From assembly GCF_003569045.1 (NCBI RefSeq), contig NZ_BFCB01000003.1:620001-684000 (forward strand): a stretch of 64,000 nucleotides of DNA, given 5' to 3'. The stretch's first letter is position 1. Every line of letters begins with the position of its first letter. This stretch comes from Aggregatilinea lenta. GTDB taxonomy: Bacteria > Chloroflexota > Anaerolineae > Aggregatilineales > Aggregatilineaceae. A model generated the notes under the pieces. That model searched no databases and had not been told where the DNA came from. It was given only the letters and a program-made list of their open reading frames with translations. The position numbers and the translations under genes are program-made. Shown one piece after another: positions 36,832 to 43,462 of this stretch.

Positions 36832-36959
36832 TACAGGTCAACTTAAATAAACTAGAATTGTGACATATTGAACAAAAGCGAGGGAGGTGTCTTTTTAAAT
36901 ACGAGACCCGTTTTTATTCCTCACTATGGTGTCAGGGCAAGAGAAGGAGAATCGTCAAG

Positions 36960-39560
36960 GTGAGTACGAATAGTTTCCTCGCTAAAACGATGTCCGATGT
37001 TTTGCTGAACCGCCGCAGCTTCCTCAAGTGGAGTTCGGCCCTCAGCAGCACGGCGGTTTTGAGCGGGGGACTCCACAAAATTTCTCAGGGAACGCCCATT
37101 GCGTCCGCAGCGGAAGTTGCGACGCAGCAGGGTGAATGGATTACCGCCGCATGCTGGCATAACTGCGGCGGTCAGCGCTGCGTGCTCAAGGCGCAGGTCG
37201 TGGATGGCGTCGTCAAGAAGGTGAAGACCGACGACACGCATCCTGATTCGTCCGAACAGCCCCAGATTCGCGGCTGTGCGCGTGGTCGTTCGCAGCAGCA
37301 TCAGGCCTTTGGCGCCGATCGCCTGAAGTACCCGATGAAGCGCAAGAACTGGGAGCCGGGCGGCGGCAAGAAGGAACTGCGCGGCCAGGACGAGTGGGTG
37401 CGCATTTCGTGGGACGAGGCGCTCGATTACGTCGCTGACGAGTTCAAGCGCGTCATCGACCAGTACGGCAACGAGGGCATCCTCGAAACCGGCAACACCC
37501 TGGGCAGCCTGATCACCATGCTCGGCGGCGCGGGCAAGCTCTGGGGCAGCACGTCGTGGGGTACCTGGCTCTACACCGGCCCGATCATCGGCCTGGGCGA
37601 TGGCCTGTCGCTGACCTCGCACAACGACCGCCTGGAGATGCAGAATTCCGACCTGGTTGTCATGTGGGGCGGTAACTCGGCCTGGAGCTCCCAGGGCAAC
37701 AACATGCACTACTACAACGAGGCCAAGAAGGCCGGAGTCAAGTTCATCTGCATCGACCCCTATTACAACGACACGCACATGCTGCTGGCCGACGAGTGGA
37801 TCCCGATCCGCCCGGCCACGGACCATGCGCTGGCGCTGGGCATCGCGTACACGCTGCTCGACGAGGACGATCCTGAGAACACTCCGCTGATTGACTGGGA
37901 CTTCCTGGATCGCTGCACGGTTGGCTTCGATAAGGACCACATGCCCGAAGGCGCCGACCCGAAGAAGAACTTCAAGGACTACGTGCTCGGCACGTACGAC
38001 GACACGCCCAAGACGCCGGAATGGGCGTCCGAGATTTGCGGCGTGCCGCCGTACAAGATCCGCCAGCTGGCCCGCACCATCGGTTCGACGTCCAAAGTAT
38101 CGCTGCTGACGGCCTGGGCACCGGCGCGCGTCAACAATGCCGACACCTGGCCGCAGATGTTCATGACCCTGGGTTGCATGACCGGTAACATCGGCAAGCC
38201 GGGTTGCTGCACGGGCGTGAGCTGCTGGGAGCGCACGGCAGACGGCGGTCCGTTCCTGATCAGCGCGGGCGGCAGCGGCGCGCCGCGTGCCTCCAACGAC
38301 AACGCGATCAGCGTGTCGATTAACAATAACGAAGCCTGGAGCGCCATCCTCGACGGCAAGTACGTCGCCGGTTACGACGACGTGCGCGACATCAACATCC
38401 AGATGATCGTGCACGACGCCGGTCACGCCCTGAACCAGAAGGTCGGCATGACCAAGGGTATCGAAGCGCACCGCAAGGTCGAGTTCGTGCTGTCGCTGAA
38501 CCTGTTCCTGAACACCAACAGCAAGTACGCTGACATCGTGCTGCCCGTGACCACGCAGTGGGAGCGTTACGGCTACCTCAAGGGTAACCGCGACCACCTG
38601 ATCTGGGCACGCCAGATCACCGAGCCGCTGTTCGAGGCGAAGGATGACGACTGGATCGCCCGTGAACTGGCGACCCGCCTGGACGTTGATCCCGACGTGG
38701 TCGATCCGATGCCGCTCAACCAGCAGATCTTCAACCAGCTCGCTGGCGCGAAGGTCATCAAGGACAACGGCGTGGACTTCGAGCCGCTGCTGACCATCAC
38801 CTCTGACGACATCGCTGAGATGGGCGTCGAGGGTGAGCCGCAGGAAGGCCGCATCACGCTCCAGCAGTTCAAGACGGACGGCGTCTACACCGTCGCGCGT
38901 AAGAAGGGCGACAAGCTCGGCTACATCGCGCACCAGTCGTTCCGCGACGATCCTGAGGCCAACCCACTCAAGTCGGCTACCGGCAAGCTGGAAATCTACA
39001 GCGAAGCCAATGCCGAAATGGTTAAGGGCCACGGTTTCAACGAGATCGACCCGATCCCGACCTACAACCCCGCCATCGAAGGCTACGCGGATACCTTCGA
39101 CGATTGGGACAACAAGGTCAAGGGCGACTATCCGCTCCAGATGTTCACCATCCACTACCGCCGCCGTTCGCACTCGATCTTCGACAACATCCCCTGGCTG
39201 CGTGAGGCGTTCCCGCAGGAACTCATCATGAACCCGGCGGATGCGGAGCCGCTCGGCCTGAAGCACGGCGATACGGCGCTCGTGACCAGCCGTCACGGCA
39301 AGGTGATCCGCCCGGTCTTCCTTACCGAGCGTATCATGCCCGGTGTGGTGGCGTTGGGTGAAGGTGCGTGGGCCGAAGTCGATGAGGAAAGCGGCATCGA
39401 CAAGGCAGGCGCGACCAACACGCTCAACGGCGCGTATCCCACCGGCCAGGGGCACCAGGGATGGAACTCGTTGAACGTCAAGATCGAACGGTACGGTGGC
39501 CCAGAGGCCCGCGAGCGGGACTACAAGTGGAGCCAGCGGATCCCCATTAAGGAAGCGTAA
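36960..39560 (+). CDS. dmsA: Tat-exported molybdopterin oxidoreductase, DmsA-like catalytic subunit
   Basis: The 866-residue enzyme begins with a twin-arginine signal (NRRSFLKWSS, Arg18-Arg19). A [4Fe-4S] motif Cys65-x3-Cys69-x4-Cys74 and Cys106 follows, then molybdopterin-binding segments (GNTLGSLITMLGGAGKLWGS, VMWGGNSAWSSQGNNMHYY, PVTTQWERYGYLKGNRDHL) and a C-terminal dinucleotide-binding domain. The order and the DmsB/DmsC neighbours place it in the DMSO reductase family, acting outside the cytoplasmic membrane. Substrates in this group include DMSO, TMAO, selenate and others, so the acceptor is not decided by sequence. A GTG start has AAGGAG ten bases upstream. Confidence 0.87.
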   Translation: MSTNSFLAKTMSDVLLNRRSFLKWSSALSSTAVLSGGLHKISQGTPIASAAEVATQQGEWITAACWHNCGGQRCVLKAQVVDGVVKKVKTDDTHPDSSEQPQIRGCARGRSQQHQAFGADRLKYPMKRKNWEPGGGKKELRGQDEWVRISWDEALDYVADEFKRVIDQYGNEGILETGNTLGSLITMLGGAGKLWGSTSWGTWLYTGPIIGLGDGLSLTSHNDRLEMQNSDLVVMWGGNSAWSSQGNNMHYYNEAKKAGVKFICIDPYYNDTHMLLADEWIPIRPATDHALALGIAYTLLDEDDPENTPLIDWDFLDRCTVGFDKDHMPEGADPKKNFKDYVLGTYDDTPKTPEWASEICGVPPYKIRQLARTIGSTSKVSLLTAWAPARVNNADTWPQMFMTLGCMTGNIGKPGCCTGVSCWERTADGGPFLISAGGSGAPRASNDNAISVSINNNEAWSAILDGKYVAGYDDVRDINIQMIVHDAGHALNQKVGMTKGIEAHRKVEFVLSLNLFLNTNSKYADIVLPVTTQWERYGYLKGNRDHLIWARQITEPLFEAKDDDWIARELATRLDVDPDVVDPMPLNQQIFNQLAGAKVIKDNGVDFEPLLTITSDDIAEMGVEGEPQEGRITLQQFKTDGVYTVARKKGDKLGYIAHQSFRDDPEANPLKSATGKLEIYSEANAEMVKGHGFNEIDPIPTYNPAIEGYADTFDDWDNKVKGDYPLQMFTIHYRRRSHSIFDNIPWLREAFPQELIMNPADAEPLGLKHGDTALVTSRHGKVIRPVFLTERIMPGVVALGEGAWAEVDEESGIDKAGATNTLNGAYPTGQGHQGWNSLNVKIERYGGPEARERDYKWSQRIPIKEA

Positions 39561-39565
39561 CAAAC

Positions 39566-40192
39566 ATGGCCAAGCAACTAGCCTTTCACTTTAACTCGAG
39601 CCTCTGCAACGGCTGTAAGGCATGCGTCATCGCCTGTAAGTCGAAGAATGCGCTCCCGGTGGACGTCAACTACCGCCGGGTGTACGAGTATGGCGGCGGC
39701 GGTTGGGTGGCGGACCCGATGGCTCCGGCCTTCCTGACGCCGAACAACATCTTCGTCTACTCGCTGTCTGTCGCATGCATGCACTGCGAAAATCCCGCGT
39801 GCGTCGATGTCTGCCCCGCCAAGGCCATCGAGAAGCGTGACGATGGTATTGTCGTGGTCGATTCCGACAAGTGCATCGGCTGCCACTACTGCTCGTGGGC
39901 CTGTCCGTACGGTGCGCCCCAGTTCGACCCCGAAGAAGGCACCATGCGCAAGTGCGACATGTGCGCCGACGTCGTGGACGAAGGCGGCACCCCATACTGC
40001 GTGAGCGCCTGCCCCATGCGCGCGCTGGACTTTGGCGAGCTGGAAGAGCTGCGCGCCAAGTACGGCACAGTGGCCGAAGTGGCGCCGCTGCCGCCCGCCG
40101 ACATCACCAATCCTGCCTTTGTGCTGACGCCCCATCGCCATTCCCAGCCTGTCGGCTCGAAGGTCGGGCGCGTCTATGACGATGAGGTGTAA
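39566..40192 (+). CDS. dmsB: DmsB-like four-cluster ferredoxin subunit
   Basis: The 208-residue protein has four Cys clusters for [4Fe-4S]: CNGCKACVIAC; CMHCENPACVDVCP; CIGCHYCSWACP; and CDMCADVVDE followed by YCVSACPMRAL. This is the electron-transfer subunit that links the membrane anchor to the catalytic subunit. It has no signal peptide, so it must be carried out through Tat with DmsA. It starts five bases after dmsA and its stop overlaps the start of dmsC (TAATG). Confidence 0.93.
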   Translation: MAKQLAFHFNSSLCNGCKACVIACKSKNALPVDVNYRRVYEYGGGGWVADPMAPAFLTPNNIFVYSLSVACMHCENPACVDVCPAKAIEKRDDGIVVVDSDKCIGCHYCSWACPYGAPQFDPEEGTMRKCDMCADVVDEGGTPYCVSACPMRALDFGELEELRAKYGTVAEVAPLPPADITNPAFVLTPHRHSQPVGSKVGRVYDDEV

Positions 40193-41109
40193 TGATGGAA
40201 ACGCGTGAATGGGCACTCGTCACGTACACAATCCTGTCCCAGATGGCTGTTGGCTCCTTTCTGGTGCTGGGCGCGGTGCACTTCCTGGCACAGCGCAAAG
40301 CCGGTGAAGCTGAAGCCGACCGTCTGAGCGACCGTGCGCTGCTGGCCATCGGGCCGGTGCTGGTGCTCGGCGTGCTCGCCTCGCTGCTGCACCTGGGCAA
40401 CCCGGCGAACGCATACCGCGCGATCGCGAACATCGGCTCGTCGTGGTTGAGCCGCGAGATCTTCTTCACTATGGCCTTCACGGGCGTTGGCTTCGTGTTC
40501 GCCATCATGCAGTGGCGCAAGCTCGCCACCCCGGCCATCCGCAATGCGGTTGCCGTCCTCGCGGCACTGATCGGCGTGGTCGCGGTCTACAGCATGTCGC
40601 ACATCTACATGCTGGCCAACCAGCCTACCTGGAATTCTGCCGCAACGCCGCTCTCGTTCTTCTGCACGACCCTACTGCTCGGCTCGCTGGCGATCGGCGT
40701 GGCGCTGAGCGCGAATTACACCTATCTGAAGTCCCGCAAGAGCGCTGCGCTGGACGTCCAGGCGAACCTGCTGCGCGACGCGCTGCGCTGGATCGCTGTA
40801 GCGGCGATCGTGGTGCTGGGCTTCGAGCTGGTGGTGATCTCGGCCAGCCTGATCGACTTCGGTTCCGGCGATGCGGCGGCCAGCCTGGTCAACATTGCAG
40901 AAGACTACAACACACTGTTCATCCTGCGCATCAGCCTGGTCTTCCTGGGCGCCGGGGTGTTCGCCTTCTTCCTCTATCGCACTGCGTCGGTGCTCGGCCA
41001 GGAGCGTGTGCTTTTCGCTCTGGTCTACGGCGCGTTTGCGCTGGTCCTGATCGCGGAAGTAATGGGGCGCTATCTGTTCTACGCCTCGCACATCAAGATC
41101 GGTTTCTAG
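40192..41109 (+). CDS. dmsC: DmsC-like membrane anchor subunit
   Basis: This 305-residue protein with eight or nine hydrophobic helices matches the DmsC anchor family. It starts METREWALVTYTILSQMAVGSFLVLG, has the loop LHLGNPANAYRAIANIGSSWLSREI (a family hallmark) and ends LIAEVMGRYLFYASH. It oxidises menaquinol and passes electrons to DmsB. Start codons at 40192 and 40195 are both possible; the former overlaps the dmsB stop. The operon of three genes is closed by the hairpin at 41130. Confidence 0.92.
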   Translation: MMETREWALVTYTILSQMAVGSFLVLGAVHFLAQRKAGEAEADRLSDRALLAIGPVLVLGVLASLLHLGNPANAYRAIANIGSSWLSREIFFTMAFTGVGFVFAIMQWRKLATPAIRNAVAVLAALIGVVAVYSMSHIYMLANQPTWNSAATPLSFFCTTLLLGSLAIGVALSANYTYLKSRKSAALDVQANLLRDALRWIAVAAIVVLGFELVVISASLIDFGSGDAAASLVNIAEDYNTLFILRISLVFLGAGVFAFFLYRTASVLGQERVLFALVYGAFALVLIAEVMGRYLFYASHIKIGF

Positions 41110-41129
41110 GCCGGTTCACAGCAAATGAG

Positions 41130-41164
41130 GGCAGGGGAGCTATGCAAGCTCCCCTGCCGTTTCC
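41130..41164 (+). terminator. Hairpin terminator behind dmsC
   Basis: GGCAGGGGAGCT, loop ATGCA, then AGCTCCCCTGCC forms a perfect 12-base stem followed by GTTT. It separates dmsABC from the chaperone and radical SAM genes. Confidence 0.7.
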
Positions 41165-41302
41165 ACTGTTTACATTTATCCGGCGTTCTTGTGCCTTTGT
41201 GCCCCGCCCGTCAGTTCGTTCTCACTTTATACTCAAGTTACTTAAGTTCAGGCACATCACATCCCCCAGCCGGGATTCTGTCGCTAATCAATGGAGATCG
41301 TT

Positions 41303-42028
41303 GTGATCAATTCTGCACCCCAATCCACGAGCGATGAGCGTACGGAGCAGCTTGTCGGCCAGGTATTGCTGTTCGGCCTGCTCGGAAAAATCCTGTATTC
41401 GATCCCTGCGCGTGACTGGCTCGATCCGCTGGTGACCGACAACCTGTTTGAATCGGTCCCGTTTGCCGAGTCCCAGCCGGACACGGCGGACGGACTTGAC
41501 CTGCTGGCCGCCTGGACTGACGCATGCCAGGACGGCATCGACGACCAGATGCTGATTGACCTGAAGGCTGATTACACCGCGCTGTTCGTCGGGCTGCGGG
41601 CGATGAAAGCTCCGGCTTGGGAATCGGTGTATTTCAGCGAGGAGCGCCTGCTTTTCCAGGATCGCACGGTGGACGTGCAGTCGCGCTACCAGCAGATGGG
41701 CGCGGAAGTACAGACGCCCGACCGCGAGCCGGTGGACCACATCGCGTTCGAGCTGAGCTTTGTCGGGCACTGCGCGCAACTGGCGCTGACCGCGCTGGAA
41801 GCGGACGACTCGCTCCAGTTCGACGCCGTCACTGCCGCCAAGCGTGAGTTCCTGAGCGAGCACCTGATGCAGTGGGGTCCCAAGTGGGCCGAGCTGGTCA
41901 TCAAGTACGCCCAAACTGGCTTCTACCGGGGCCTCGCGTACCTCGTACGCGGCGCGCTGGCCGAGTTGGCGCAGATCGACGCGGTGCGCGTCCCGGCCAA
42001 GATCAAGTACCTCGGCATCCCGGAATAG
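41303..42028 (+). CDS. TorD/DmsD-family molybdoenzyme chaperone
   Basis: The protein of about 241 residues belongs to the TorD family of helical chaperones that bind the Tat signal of a molybdoenzyme and help cofactor insertion. Family signs are ADYTALFVGLRAMKAPAWESVYFSEERLLFQ, the TVDVQSRYQQMG stretch and PVDHIAFELSFVGH. Its partner should be the DmsA-like protein upstream. GTG 41303 has GGAG six bases before it; ATG 41291 would add four residues but has no ribosome binding site. It lies beyond a terminator, so it may have its own promoter, and the radical SAM gene follows 26 bases later. Confidence 0.88.
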   Translation: MINSAPQSTSDERTEQLVGQVLLFGLLGKILYSIPARDWLDPLVTDNLFESVPFAESQPDTADGLDLLAAWTDACQDGIDDQMLIDLKADYTALFVGLRAMKAPAWESVYFSEERLLFQDRTVDVQSRYQQMGAEVQTPDREPVDHIAFELSFVGHCAQLALTALEADDSLQFDAVTAAKREFLSEHLMQWGPKWAELVIKYAQTGFYRGLAYLVRGALAELAQIDAVRVPAKIKYLGIPE

Positions 42029-42054
42029 GCAGGACTAGTCAAAGGACTCGAACG

Positions 42055-43377
42055 GTGATCATTGCCATCACGCCCGAAACCCGTCACCAGATCAAGAATC
42101 CCCAGCTGGCAGCCTATGCGGATATCTACTTGAGGATCTACGACAACTTCCTCAACCAGATGCGCGACAGCGGCATCGACGTCGATGATGCTGGCGCGGG
42201 CGATGTCTCCCCCGAGGTGTTCGACCGGCTTGAGCAAAAAGGGGTGATCTTCCGCAACGGAGGCCGCAGCATCTACTCCGGCGCGATCTCAGCGGCGTGC
42301 GTGGCCTGCAAAAAAGGCGTGGGCAGCGCGACGTTCTTCATCTCGCTGAAGTGCAACCGCAGTTGCTACTACTGCTTCAACCCGAATCAGGTCGATTACG
42401 AGCATCACCGGACGCACGAGCGCGACCTGATCCGCGAGCTGGACGAGATGGCGGCGACCGGGCAGCACCTGAGCTGTGTCGCGCTGACCGGCGGCGAGCC
42501 GCTGCTGCACAAGGCGCAGGCGATTCACTTCTTCGAGCACGCCGCCGATTGCTTCCCCAACGTGCACACGCGCCTCTACACCTGCGGTGACTACGTGGAC
42601 GAGGCCGTGCTGGCCGAGCTGCGCGACGCGGGCCTGCGCGAGATTCGCTTCAGCATCCGCATGCACGACACGGCGCACCTGCGCAGCCGCATTCTGGAAC
42701 GCGTCGAGCTGGCGAAGCGCTACATCCCCGACGTGATGATCGAACTGCCGATCATCCCCGGCACGCTGGACATCATGAAGGACATCCTGCGCGAGCTGGA
42801 CCGCATCGGGATCTACAGCATCAACCTGCTGGAGTTGTGCTATCCGCTGCTGAACGCCGCCGAGTTCAAGGCGCGGGGCTTCAAGGTGAAGAAGCGCCCG
42901 TTCGATACGCTGTACGACTACTGGTACGCGGGTGGCGTACCGATTGCGGGCAGCGAGGCGGAGTGCCTCGAACTGCTGGAATTTGCGCAGGACGAAGGGC
43001 TGAAGATCGGCGTGCACTACTGCTCGCTGGAAAACAAGCTCACCGGGCAGAACTACCAGCAGAACGCCAGCCATTCCTTGCCGCGCACCGCGACCCTGTC
43101 GCAGAACGACTTCCTGCTGAAATCGGCGAAGGTATTCGGCGACGACGTCGCGCCGGTGATGGATGTGTTCGAGCGCGAGCGCATCCGCGACTACGCGTTC
43201 GACCCGGATCACAACTGTCTGGAATTCAACGTCAACGCCATTCGTGTGCTGAAGAAGCTGGACATCGAGATCGGCATCTCGACCAGCACCTTCGAGGAAC
43301 GCGAGGACGGCCTGGTCATCCGCGAGCTAAAGGTGGACCTGACCACGCCGCGCCTGTTCAAGCGCGCGGACGTGTGA
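42055..43377 (+). CDS. Radical SAM protein linked to the molybdoenzyme operon
   Basis: The 440-residue protein has the radical SAM motif Cys100-x3-Cys104-x2-Cys107 (CNRSCYYC), preceded by a CxxC at Cys82 and Cys85 (ACVACKKG). ALTGGEPLLHKAQAI gives the GGE motif of the S-adenosylmethionine site. The barrel (about 92-330) is followed by a C-terminal region of about 110 residues with LEFNVNAIRVLKKL. No SPASM-type Cys cluster is visible. GTG 42055 is preceded by AAGGA at good spacing. The gene sits directly after the TorD-like chaperone; a role in maturation of the molybdoenzyme or in making a redox partner is inference. The exact radical SAM subfamily is not recognised. Confidence 0.82.
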   Translation: MIIAITPETRHQIKNPQLAAYADIYLRIYDNFLNQMRDSGIDVDDAGAGDVSPEVFDRLEQKGVIFRNGGRSIYSGAISAACVACKKGVGSATFFISLKCNRSCYYCFNPNQVDYEHHRTHERDLIRELDEMAATGQHLSCVALTGGEPLLHKAQAIHFFEHAADCFPNVHTRLYTCGDYVDEAVLAELRDAGLREIRFSIRMHDTAHLRSRILERVELAKRYIPDVMIELPIIPGTLDIMKDILRELDRIGIYSINLLELCYPLLNAAEFKARGFKVKKRPFDTLYDYWYAGGVPIAGSEAECLELLEFAQDEGLKIGVHYCSLENKLTGQNYQQNASHSLPRTATLSQNDFLLKSAKVFGDDVAPVMDVFERERIRDYAFDPDHNCLEFNVNAIRVLKKLDIEIGISTSTFEEREDGLVIRELKVDLTTPRLFKRADV

Positions 43378-43420: not shown

Positions 43421-43462
43421 AAAAAACGGGGCGGGGCAGGTTTTTACCCACCCCGTTTTTTT
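43421..43462. terminator. Bidirectional Rho-independent terminator
   Basis: AAAAAACGGGG and CCCCGTTTTTTT frame a loop that can itself pair CGGG with CCCA-like bases. A-tract and T-tract on the two sides let it serve both the radical SAM gene (plus) and the mutarotase gene (minus). Confidence 0.9.

Follow-up and report, generated by a model that had tools for sequence, protein, structure and literature searches.

What does a radical S-adenosylmethionine (SAM) enzyme do beside the genes of a respiratory molybdoenzyme and its chaperone? The question is raised by a 64,000-nucleotide stretch of the Aggregatilinea lenta genome (contig NZ_BFCB01000003.1, positions 620,001 to 684,000 of the forward strand; hereafter the window), in which dmsA, dmsB and dmsC are followed by a gene for a TorD-family chaperone and then by one for a 440-residue radical SAM protein, all in line on the plus strand at 36960-43377 (Table 1). 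An earlier note on this DNA had singled out positions 41303-43377, which correspond exactly to torD and the radical SAM gene, and had proposed a role in making or repairing the molybdoenzyme cofactor or in modifying a redox carrier. We find that the radical SAM family is tied to TorD and DmsA throughout, that some relatives carry twin-arginine translocation (Tat) genes beside it, and that its presence covaries with a single serine of the catalytic subunit, DmsA Ser737. Gene order, Tat genes and chaperone place the protein in DmsA maturation before export, and covariation with one catalytic-subunit residue favours modification of that residue or its contact. On balance, we therefore hold it probable, if not strongly so, that the protein is a dedicated DmsA maturase, most likely modifying Ser737 or something touching it.

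The window protein has the CxxxCxxC motif of the radical SAM superfamily and scores above the PF04055 cut-off of 29.5 bits. Among the best 25 of its 33 NCBIfam matches, none reaches a curated cut-off: HxsC, the best, scores 43.2 bits (TIGR03977, cut-off 267.9), MoaA 30.4 bits (TIGR02666, cut-off 284.05) and the radical SAM maturase of tungsten cofactor oxidoreductases 24.9 bits (TIGR04317, cut-off 380). The model of the anaerobic sulfatase-maturating enzymes (anSMEs) is absent from the same 25, and no SPASM model is found among the two Pfam matches. As the protein stays under every cut-off among these matches, its family is unnamed in these libraries. Six peptide patterns, run against 84,980 species genomes, picked up 17 long copies and a degraded one in records named as Anaerolineae/Chloroflexi and Bacillota (Peptococcaceae, Gracilibacter and Sporomusa acidovorans); distant members are missed because all patterns were taken from the window protein. 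Eight cysteines (82, 85, 100, 104, 107, 262, 304 and 323) are common to all 18 aligned members, which confirms as invariant the extra CxxC that the earlier note had seen ahead of the cluster motif in the gene following the chaperone. That CxxC and a later CSxxxK motif (at Cys323) also occur in members of two other radical SAM families, and thus mark a wider group rather than a peculiarity of the window gene. In the AlphaFold model (average predicted local distance difference test score of 85.6), the folds of NifB, viperin and the pyruvate formate-lyase (PFL) activase are among the closest solved structures (Z about 15-16.6), and peptide maturases match as well, all over the common radical SAM core, with the C-terminal part and the N-terminal helices barely covered. 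Matches from Foldseek and VIA-align reflect mainly this core, and the absence of a family from these lists is not evidence.

The two families that share the CxxC and CSxxxK motifs, a Bacillota family of roughly 380 residues and a family found in loci that look like those of ribosomally synthesized and post-translationally modified peptides (RiPPs), are uncharacterized (loci L045-L046 and L105-L108 in our numbering, the two families taken together), and the wider group is set apart by its unusual cysteine set. Four weak Bacillota matches (E values of 1 × 10−12 to 1 × 10−15; genomes G565, G671, G726 and G824) proved to belong to the 380-residue family, and TorD was found in none of these four genomes. 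Relatives with 28% identity in the window's own order (L045 and L046) were likewise set aside as a sister family; no match to DmsA, DmsB, DmsC or TorD was found in the 20-kb stretches around them. The degraded copy lies at about 7900-8500 of L044 in Gracilibacter sp. BRH_c7a, following, a few kilobases on, a pair that resembles DmsA/DmsB and a gene resembling a regulator.

DmsA carries the Molybdopterin and Molydop_binding domains of the DMSO reductase family, whose cofactor is a molybdenum bis(pyranopterin guanine dinucleotide) (Mo-bisPGD), and has a serine at the Mo-ligand position, Ser199, which aligns with the Mo-ligand serine of DMSO reductase (presumably Ser147 there). Its score with the DMSO/selenate reductase A model TIGR02166 (528.3 bits) lies below the cut-off of 777.7, for which reason we treat it as a close but distinct type, here named type I. 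A Tat-like motif, RRSFLK, lies at residues 18-23, and the match to the TAT model PF10518 is 16.5 bits (cut-off 22.7). The chaperone is well above the PF02613 cut-off of 22.2 bits and remains below the equivalog cut-offs of both DmsD (74.7 versus 162 bits) and TorD (66.1 versus 132 bits).

Co-occurrence of the radical SAM family with TorD and DmsA, which the earlier note had put forward as the check to make, is borne out across genomes. TorD is present in all 27 distinct genomes with the radical SAM gene that were tested, including all 17 behind L027-L043 (a count that excludes 13 such genomes from a later class and Anaerolineae search). Of 40 genomes with the gene, 38 have a DmsA relative: 25 of the 27 searched at E ≤ 1 × 10−60 (11 of 11 in the set of genomes with TorD described below and 14 of 16 others) and all 13 searched at E ≤ 1 × 10−120. 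A spread of the family through genomes lacking DMSO-reductase enzymes, the distribution that would have spoken against the link, was not observed. In a sample of 400 Chloroflexota genomes, the gene occurs in six and TorD in 71, with TorD in 6/6 carriers of the gene compared to 65/394 others (P = 3 × 10−5); the Bacillota-type phylum of G532 gives a similar picture, with strong matches in five and TorD in 60 of 299 genomes, and TorD in 5/5 carriers compared to 55/294 others (P = 3 × 10−4). Most genomes with TorD have no radical SAM gene. Of 131 genomes with TorD, 80 were searched (the other 51 were excluded by hand, many with lower TorD scores and none with the radical SAM gene), and DmsA was found at E ≤ 1 × 10−60 in 11/11 with the gene compared to 9/69 without (P = 2 × 10−8).

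The tie is closest for type-I DmsA. The class of G790 is apparently covered in full by the 82 genomes searched; type-I DmsA (E ≤ 1 × 10−120) occurs in 19 of them, and the radical SAM gene in 17 of these 19 compared to one of the 63 others (P = 2 × 10−14), the exceptions being G790 and G848 (type-I DmsA without the gene) and G532 (the reverse). Here, the status of the gene comes from direct searches for 67 genomes, from the phylum search for 11 (eight inferred) and from the six-pattern scan for G528-G531, and ten of 54 genomes without type-I DmsA have only weak matches (E values of 4 × 10−11 to 7 × 10−14) that are not counted. Among 150 Anaerolineae genomes, eight have type-I DmsA and six of these have the gene (all except G908 and G1009). 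The Fisher P values given here disregard kinship, and some absences may be false as few candidates were scored per genome (at most four for the radical SAM gene in Chloroflexota, and at most 11 or six in the DmsA searches). G966 and G525 are one genome and enter the counts as one.

The gene neighbourhoods of relatives tell the same story at closer range. Gene order varies, from torD-radical SAM-dmsABC (L030) through dmsABC-radical SAM-torD (L033) to torD-dmsABC-radical SAM (L043), and in L101 and L103 the radical SAM gene is flanked by DmsA genes; the order is thus shuffled while the partners stay, and the link with TorD and DmsA is kept. In L028 and L029, the torD-radical SAM pair is retained with no dmsABC found beside it, and DmsA lies elsewhere in the genome (75% identical in G520 for L028 and 41% identical in G521 for L029). 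TatA-type genes directly follow the radical SAM gene in L034, L043, L057, L058, L059 and L061 (PF02416 confirmed for the four proteins tested, from L034, L043 and L057), and TatC (PF00902) is beside it in L057, L058, L059 and L061, which suggests an export set dedicated to its enzyme.

Some of these loci hold further genes between dmsC and torD: multihaem cytochromes in L031 (2067-6032) and WD40 proteins of roughly 1,000 residues in L057 (12225-15236) and L059 (16131-19193). These are possible extracellular electron partners.

Small open reading frames (ORFs) also bear on whether the enzyme might instead mature a RiPP-like peptide that serves as a redox carrier or signal. The best characterized radical SAM matches do include peptide maturases (HxsC, SkfB and SuiB), and the 28%-identical relative sits in loci judged RiPP-like from their sequence (L045 and L046). 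Among ORFs of 25-130 residues within 4 kb of the radical SAM gene in 26 loci, including the window, those that recur are, however, TatA-type proteins, antisense partners of TatA-type or TatC genes, and one 32-residue ORF just upstream of dmsA that is common to L059 and L060 only. No RiPP precursor was recognized in this set, and we give a peptide-maturase role very little credence.

Where, then, might the enzyme act? To approach this from the side of its partner, type-I DmsA columns were compared between genomes with the radical SAM gene and the first two sequences from genomes without it (G209 and G790). Two of 150 near-invariant columns, Tyr733 and Ser737, differ in both. When rows from genomes with the gene stand in as pseudo-negatives, at least two shared identical deviations arise in 4 of 153 pairs, so that the two-sequence screen alone is weak. 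Of five later sequences without the gene, four deviate at 737, namely the three of G1009 (T, A and A) and that of G908 (A), whereas the fifth, from G848, has S; all 27 new copies from genomes with the gene in this later set have Ser737 (P = 1 × 10−4 for the later set alone). Tyr733 was dropped as a candidate target because all five later sequences keep the tyrosine. With seven more type-I copies from genomes with the gene (five Ser, one Ala and one Gln), the full set has Ser737 in 49 of 51 copies from genomes with the gene, compared to Ala or Thr in six and Ser in two of the eight copies without a detected one.

Ser737 lies in an H-Y-x-R-R-S-H-S motif inside the molybdopterin-dinucleotide-binding domain (PF01568 stretch, residues 726-823), and no other near-invariant position behaves like it. 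Across 169 near-invariant DmsA columns, it deviates in six of the eight rows without the gene, with the next best column at three of eight; none of 300 random choices of eight rows reaches six deviations (largest five). The near-invariant columns of DmsB (43, best 3/8) and DmsC (23, best 1/7) hold nothing comparable. The set of 46 rows with the gene to which the seven further copies were added contains one gene twice (L043 and L156). Duplicates (L140x, L111, L199 and L042x) were removed from the tree and column scan, as were the truncated L246 (T at the site) and L159, a fragment of the C-terminal part (S). Counted by genome over types I and II, a Ser copy is found in 36 of 38 genomes with the gene compared to one of 12 without (G848; P = 2 × 10−8), a count that rests on copies with a returned locus. 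In G722 and G534, two genomes with several copies, the DmsA nearest the radical SAM gene carries Ser, and T or V is found in the rest; in G548, the gene lies between one copy with S and one with V. In Sporomusa acidovorans Mol (L042), the gene adjoins a DmsA with Ser. Ten Proteobacteria relatives of type II, from a plasmid collection that also contains some chromosomes, have T, V, C or A (Ser in 0/10); a search of this collection with the radical SAM protein gave five records, matched at 25-28% of the query, of which four bear the annotation HxsC. A third DmsA type of roughly 690 residues, beside the radical SAM gene in L037-L040, has I or L at this position (nine aligned).

Both traits are shared by related genomes, and one account of the covariation would be co-inheritance, with a radical SAM enzyme of unrelated anaerobic function travelling with the dms genes and Ser737 merely marking lineages. 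We built a DmsA tree of 96 rows after stripping out the motif columns, and drew 200 times 13 independent pairs that differ in the radical SAM gene on well-supported branches. On average, Ser changes the same way as the gene in 6.3 pairs, the opposite way in 0.0 and not at all in 6.7. That the informative pairs all point one way, that rows without the gene are scattered over the tree, that the eight nearest sisters with the gene reach only 3/8 as pseudo-negatives, and that gene orders are rearranged all speak against co-inheritance; what favours it, besides kinship, is G659, where the radical SAM gene stands alone (L104). We regard it as decidedly improbable.

Several observations nevertheless weigh against a maturase acting at Ser737. 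In G659, DmsABC and TorD lie elsewhere in the genome (L143), a clear exception to linkage, and G519 and G533 have the radical SAM gene and TorD with no DmsA at E ≤ 1 × 10−60. The eight type-I copies without the gene come from six genomes or plasmids, as G1009 provides three, and by source the deviation is found in four of six, with Ser in the other two. G848 and a Citrobacter freundii plasmid (for which the search covered the plasmid only) have Ser737 without a detected radical SAM gene, and conversely G532 (V and A) and G521 (T) have the gene while none of the DmsA copies found there carries Ser; two type-I paralogues in genomes with the gene carry A (G530) or Q (G529), and the DmsA nearest the gene in G772 has V. 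The signal is weaker in type II (Ser in 8/21 copies with the gene compared to 0/16 without, P = 0.005), for which a strict column scan at a 95% threshold yielded no column. Finally, the median P value of the independent-pairs test is only 0.03 (range 0.008-0.06), and the tree has two long branches (L118 and L236).

The Citrobacter freundii operon (L236 11284-16834, plasmid NZ_CP099223.1) is a type-I torD-dmsABC operon with a gene for a 4Fe-4S protein, near IS26 and IS5-type elements. Its serine sits in an R-S-S-H-S variant of the motif, and the plasmid has no match to the radical SAM protein.

Two exceptions each way at Ser737 also speak for a reading in which the enzyme acts elsewhere on DmsA, or on TorD or a polyferredoxin, and Ser737 covaries indirectly through a constraint on docking or activity. 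A polyferredoxin-like gene of roughly 390 residues directly upstream of the radical SAM gene in seven Anaerolineae loci (L031, L032, L034 and L057-L060; Pfam was applied to L031 only) fits such a target. Polyferredoxins, however, also occur at TorD loci of the window's own genome that lack the radical SAM gene, and no other near-invariant column of DmsA, nor any of DmsB or DmsC, behaves like Ser737, so that we find a different target improbable.

A more serious contender, close to one of the roles proposed in the earlier note, is modification or repair of the molybdopterin dinucleotide by the radical SAM enzyme, with Ser737 only accommodating the changed cofactor and free to drift once the gene is lost. 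Ser737 falls within the PF01568 stretch, the radical SAM gene adjoins moaA and moeA in L036 and genes for FmdE-type proteins in L031 and L035, and NifB, a cofactor enzyme, is among the best structural matches, level with viperin. On the other side stand the confinement of the signal to a single residue, the lack of the gene in most genomes with TorD, and the window's own genome. This genome has one match to the window's radical SAM protein, and outside the window it has two further DmsABC operons (L141, C3:682000-701900, and L142, C3:802000-821900), whose type-II DmsA has Ser at the 737 position with no torD or radical SAM gene adjoining, and three other TorD loci (L048-L050) with polyferredoxin or FmdE-type genes and no radical SAM gene, although one radical SAM protein could act there in trans. 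Thus, of the two roles first proposed for the gene, cofactor modification stays alive as an unlikely yet real rival, and the best evidence points away from both of them and to DmsA Ser737.

Taking the maturase reading further, we propose that TorD would hold cytoplasmic apo- or pre-DmsA, which the radical SAM protein would modify by way of its [4Fe-4S]/SAM radical, perhaps assisted by an auxiliary cluster on Cys82, Cys85 and Cys323; Ser737 of the dinucleotide-binding domain would be the likeliest site. The finished subunit would then be exported through Tat and join DmsB and DmsC. Oxidation of serine to formylglycine would have the simplest precedent, with epimerization or a crosslink as alternatives. 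As a tentative proposal, which we would place just short of an even call, radical chemistry would turn Ser737 or a contacting group into formylglycine, D-serine or a crosslink while the precursor is bound to its chaperone, ahead of export through Tat.

Known systems provide each half of this proposal. anSMEs are radical SAM enzymes that alter a Ser or Cys in the polypeptide of another enzyme before it works; their SPASM domain holds two auxiliary clusters, and their targets carry a C/S-x-P/A-x-R motif. We take their serine oxidation to be the nearest precedent for action on Ser737, and the window protein may share their logic by analogy, whereas the motif here is R-R-S-H-S and its Pfam result holds no SPASM model. 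Accounts of maturation in the DMSO reductase family usually comprise synthesis of the cofactor, its insertion under guidance of a chaperone, and export through Tat. The E. coli DmsABC systems with TorD/DmsD have the same subunits, a Tat-type signal, a serine at the Mo-ligand position and a chaperone of the same Pfam family as the window; unlike the window, the E. coli dmsABC regions examined have no radical SAM gene annotated beside them, and E. coli DmsA-type copies have V or T at the Ser737 position. TIGR04317, by its name, would be a radical SAM maturase of a pterin-cofactor oxidoreductase, as proposed here, although the window protein is far below its cut-off; likeness to HxsC, the maturase of the His-Xaa-Ser system, is confined to the radical SAM core and is also far below cut-off, and the folds of NifB, viperin and the PFL activase share only that core.

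Another parallel comes from loci of quinohemoprotein amine dehydrogenase, in which, according to an excerpt of PMC2147049, a radical SAM gene has a proposed role in forming the cysteine tryptophylquinone (CTQ) cofactor. There too, the gene shares its locus with a redox enzyme of the periplasm, in which it is suggested to generate a modified residue; partner enzyme and cofactor differ from those of the window. Among the open-licence PMC articles listed in searches aimed at this question, with the subscription literature outside this scope, no title or abstract opening describes a step by a radical SAM enzyme in DmsA or TorD systems, and the excerpts of PMC6650914, PMC4464133, PMC2147049, PMC7759655 and PMC12288474 describe none. 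Radical SAM maturases and DmsABC-TorD systems are both known, and their combination with a dedicated radical SAM family and a candidate residue was not found in open-licence print. If true, the proposal would add to the maturation of DMSO-reductase-family enzymes a new kind of step, carried out by a dedicated radical SAM enzyme and tied to a named candidate residue. It would place a part made post-translationally by radical chemistry close to the cofactor of a respiratory Mo-bisPGD enzyme, and could explain why such enzymes fail in hosts without the radical SAM protein.

Table 1 Features of the dmsABC-torD-radical SAM locus, in window positions.
Feature	Position	Strand	Basis
dmsA, catalytic subunit, 866 aa, type I DmsA	36960..39560	+	PF00384, PF01568 and PF04879 above cut-offs; alignment
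Codon of DmsA Ser199 (Mo-ligand position)	37554..37556	+	Alignment to 1dms/1eu1
HYRRRSHS motif, DmsA aa 732-739, molybdopterin-dinucleotide-binding domain	39153..39176	+	PF01568 stretch 726-823
Codon of DmsA Ser737, covaries with the radical SAM gene; proposed site of action	39168..39170	+	
dmsB, iron-sulfur subunit	39566..40192	+	TIGR02951, 226.0 bits (cut-off 214.1)
dmsC, membrane anchor	40192..41109	+	PF04976, 123.1 bits
Perfect 12-bp hairpin between dmsC and torD, possible terminator	41130..41158	+	Folding energy
torD-family redox-enzyme chaperone, 241 aa	41303..42028	+	PF02613, 94.5 bits; ORF list
Radical SAM protein, 440 aa, GTG start, proposed DmsA maturase	42055..43377	+	PF04055, 57.7 bits
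Extra CVAC, Cys82 and Cys85 of the radical SAM protein (aa 82-85)	42298..42309	+	Family alignment
Radical SAM cluster motif CNRSCYYC, Cys100/104/107 (aa 100-107)	42352..42375	+	Family alignment
Hairpin with T-run 3′ of the radical SAM gene	43421..43461	+	−22 kcal/mol, z −4.0

The torD and radical SAM genes are separated by 26 bases, and an ATG at 41291 is an alternative torD start. The terminator between dmsC and torD from which the earlier note had read separate control holds up in part: the hairpin is very stable (−28.3 kcal/mol, z −5.3) and its core has no second exact match within the window, but it has no T-run and is absent from the terminator-scan list. Separate control of torD and the radical SAM gene from dmsABC is plausible. 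The hairpin downstream of the radical SAM gene is likely the end of the torD-radical SAM transcript and is possibly bidirectional; because the scan placed its stem on the minus strand, it may also serve a convergent gene. An open frame of 879 codons runs antisense to all of dmsA (window 36924-39563, minus strand); it shows no sign of being a gene and is perhaps a by-product of codon use.

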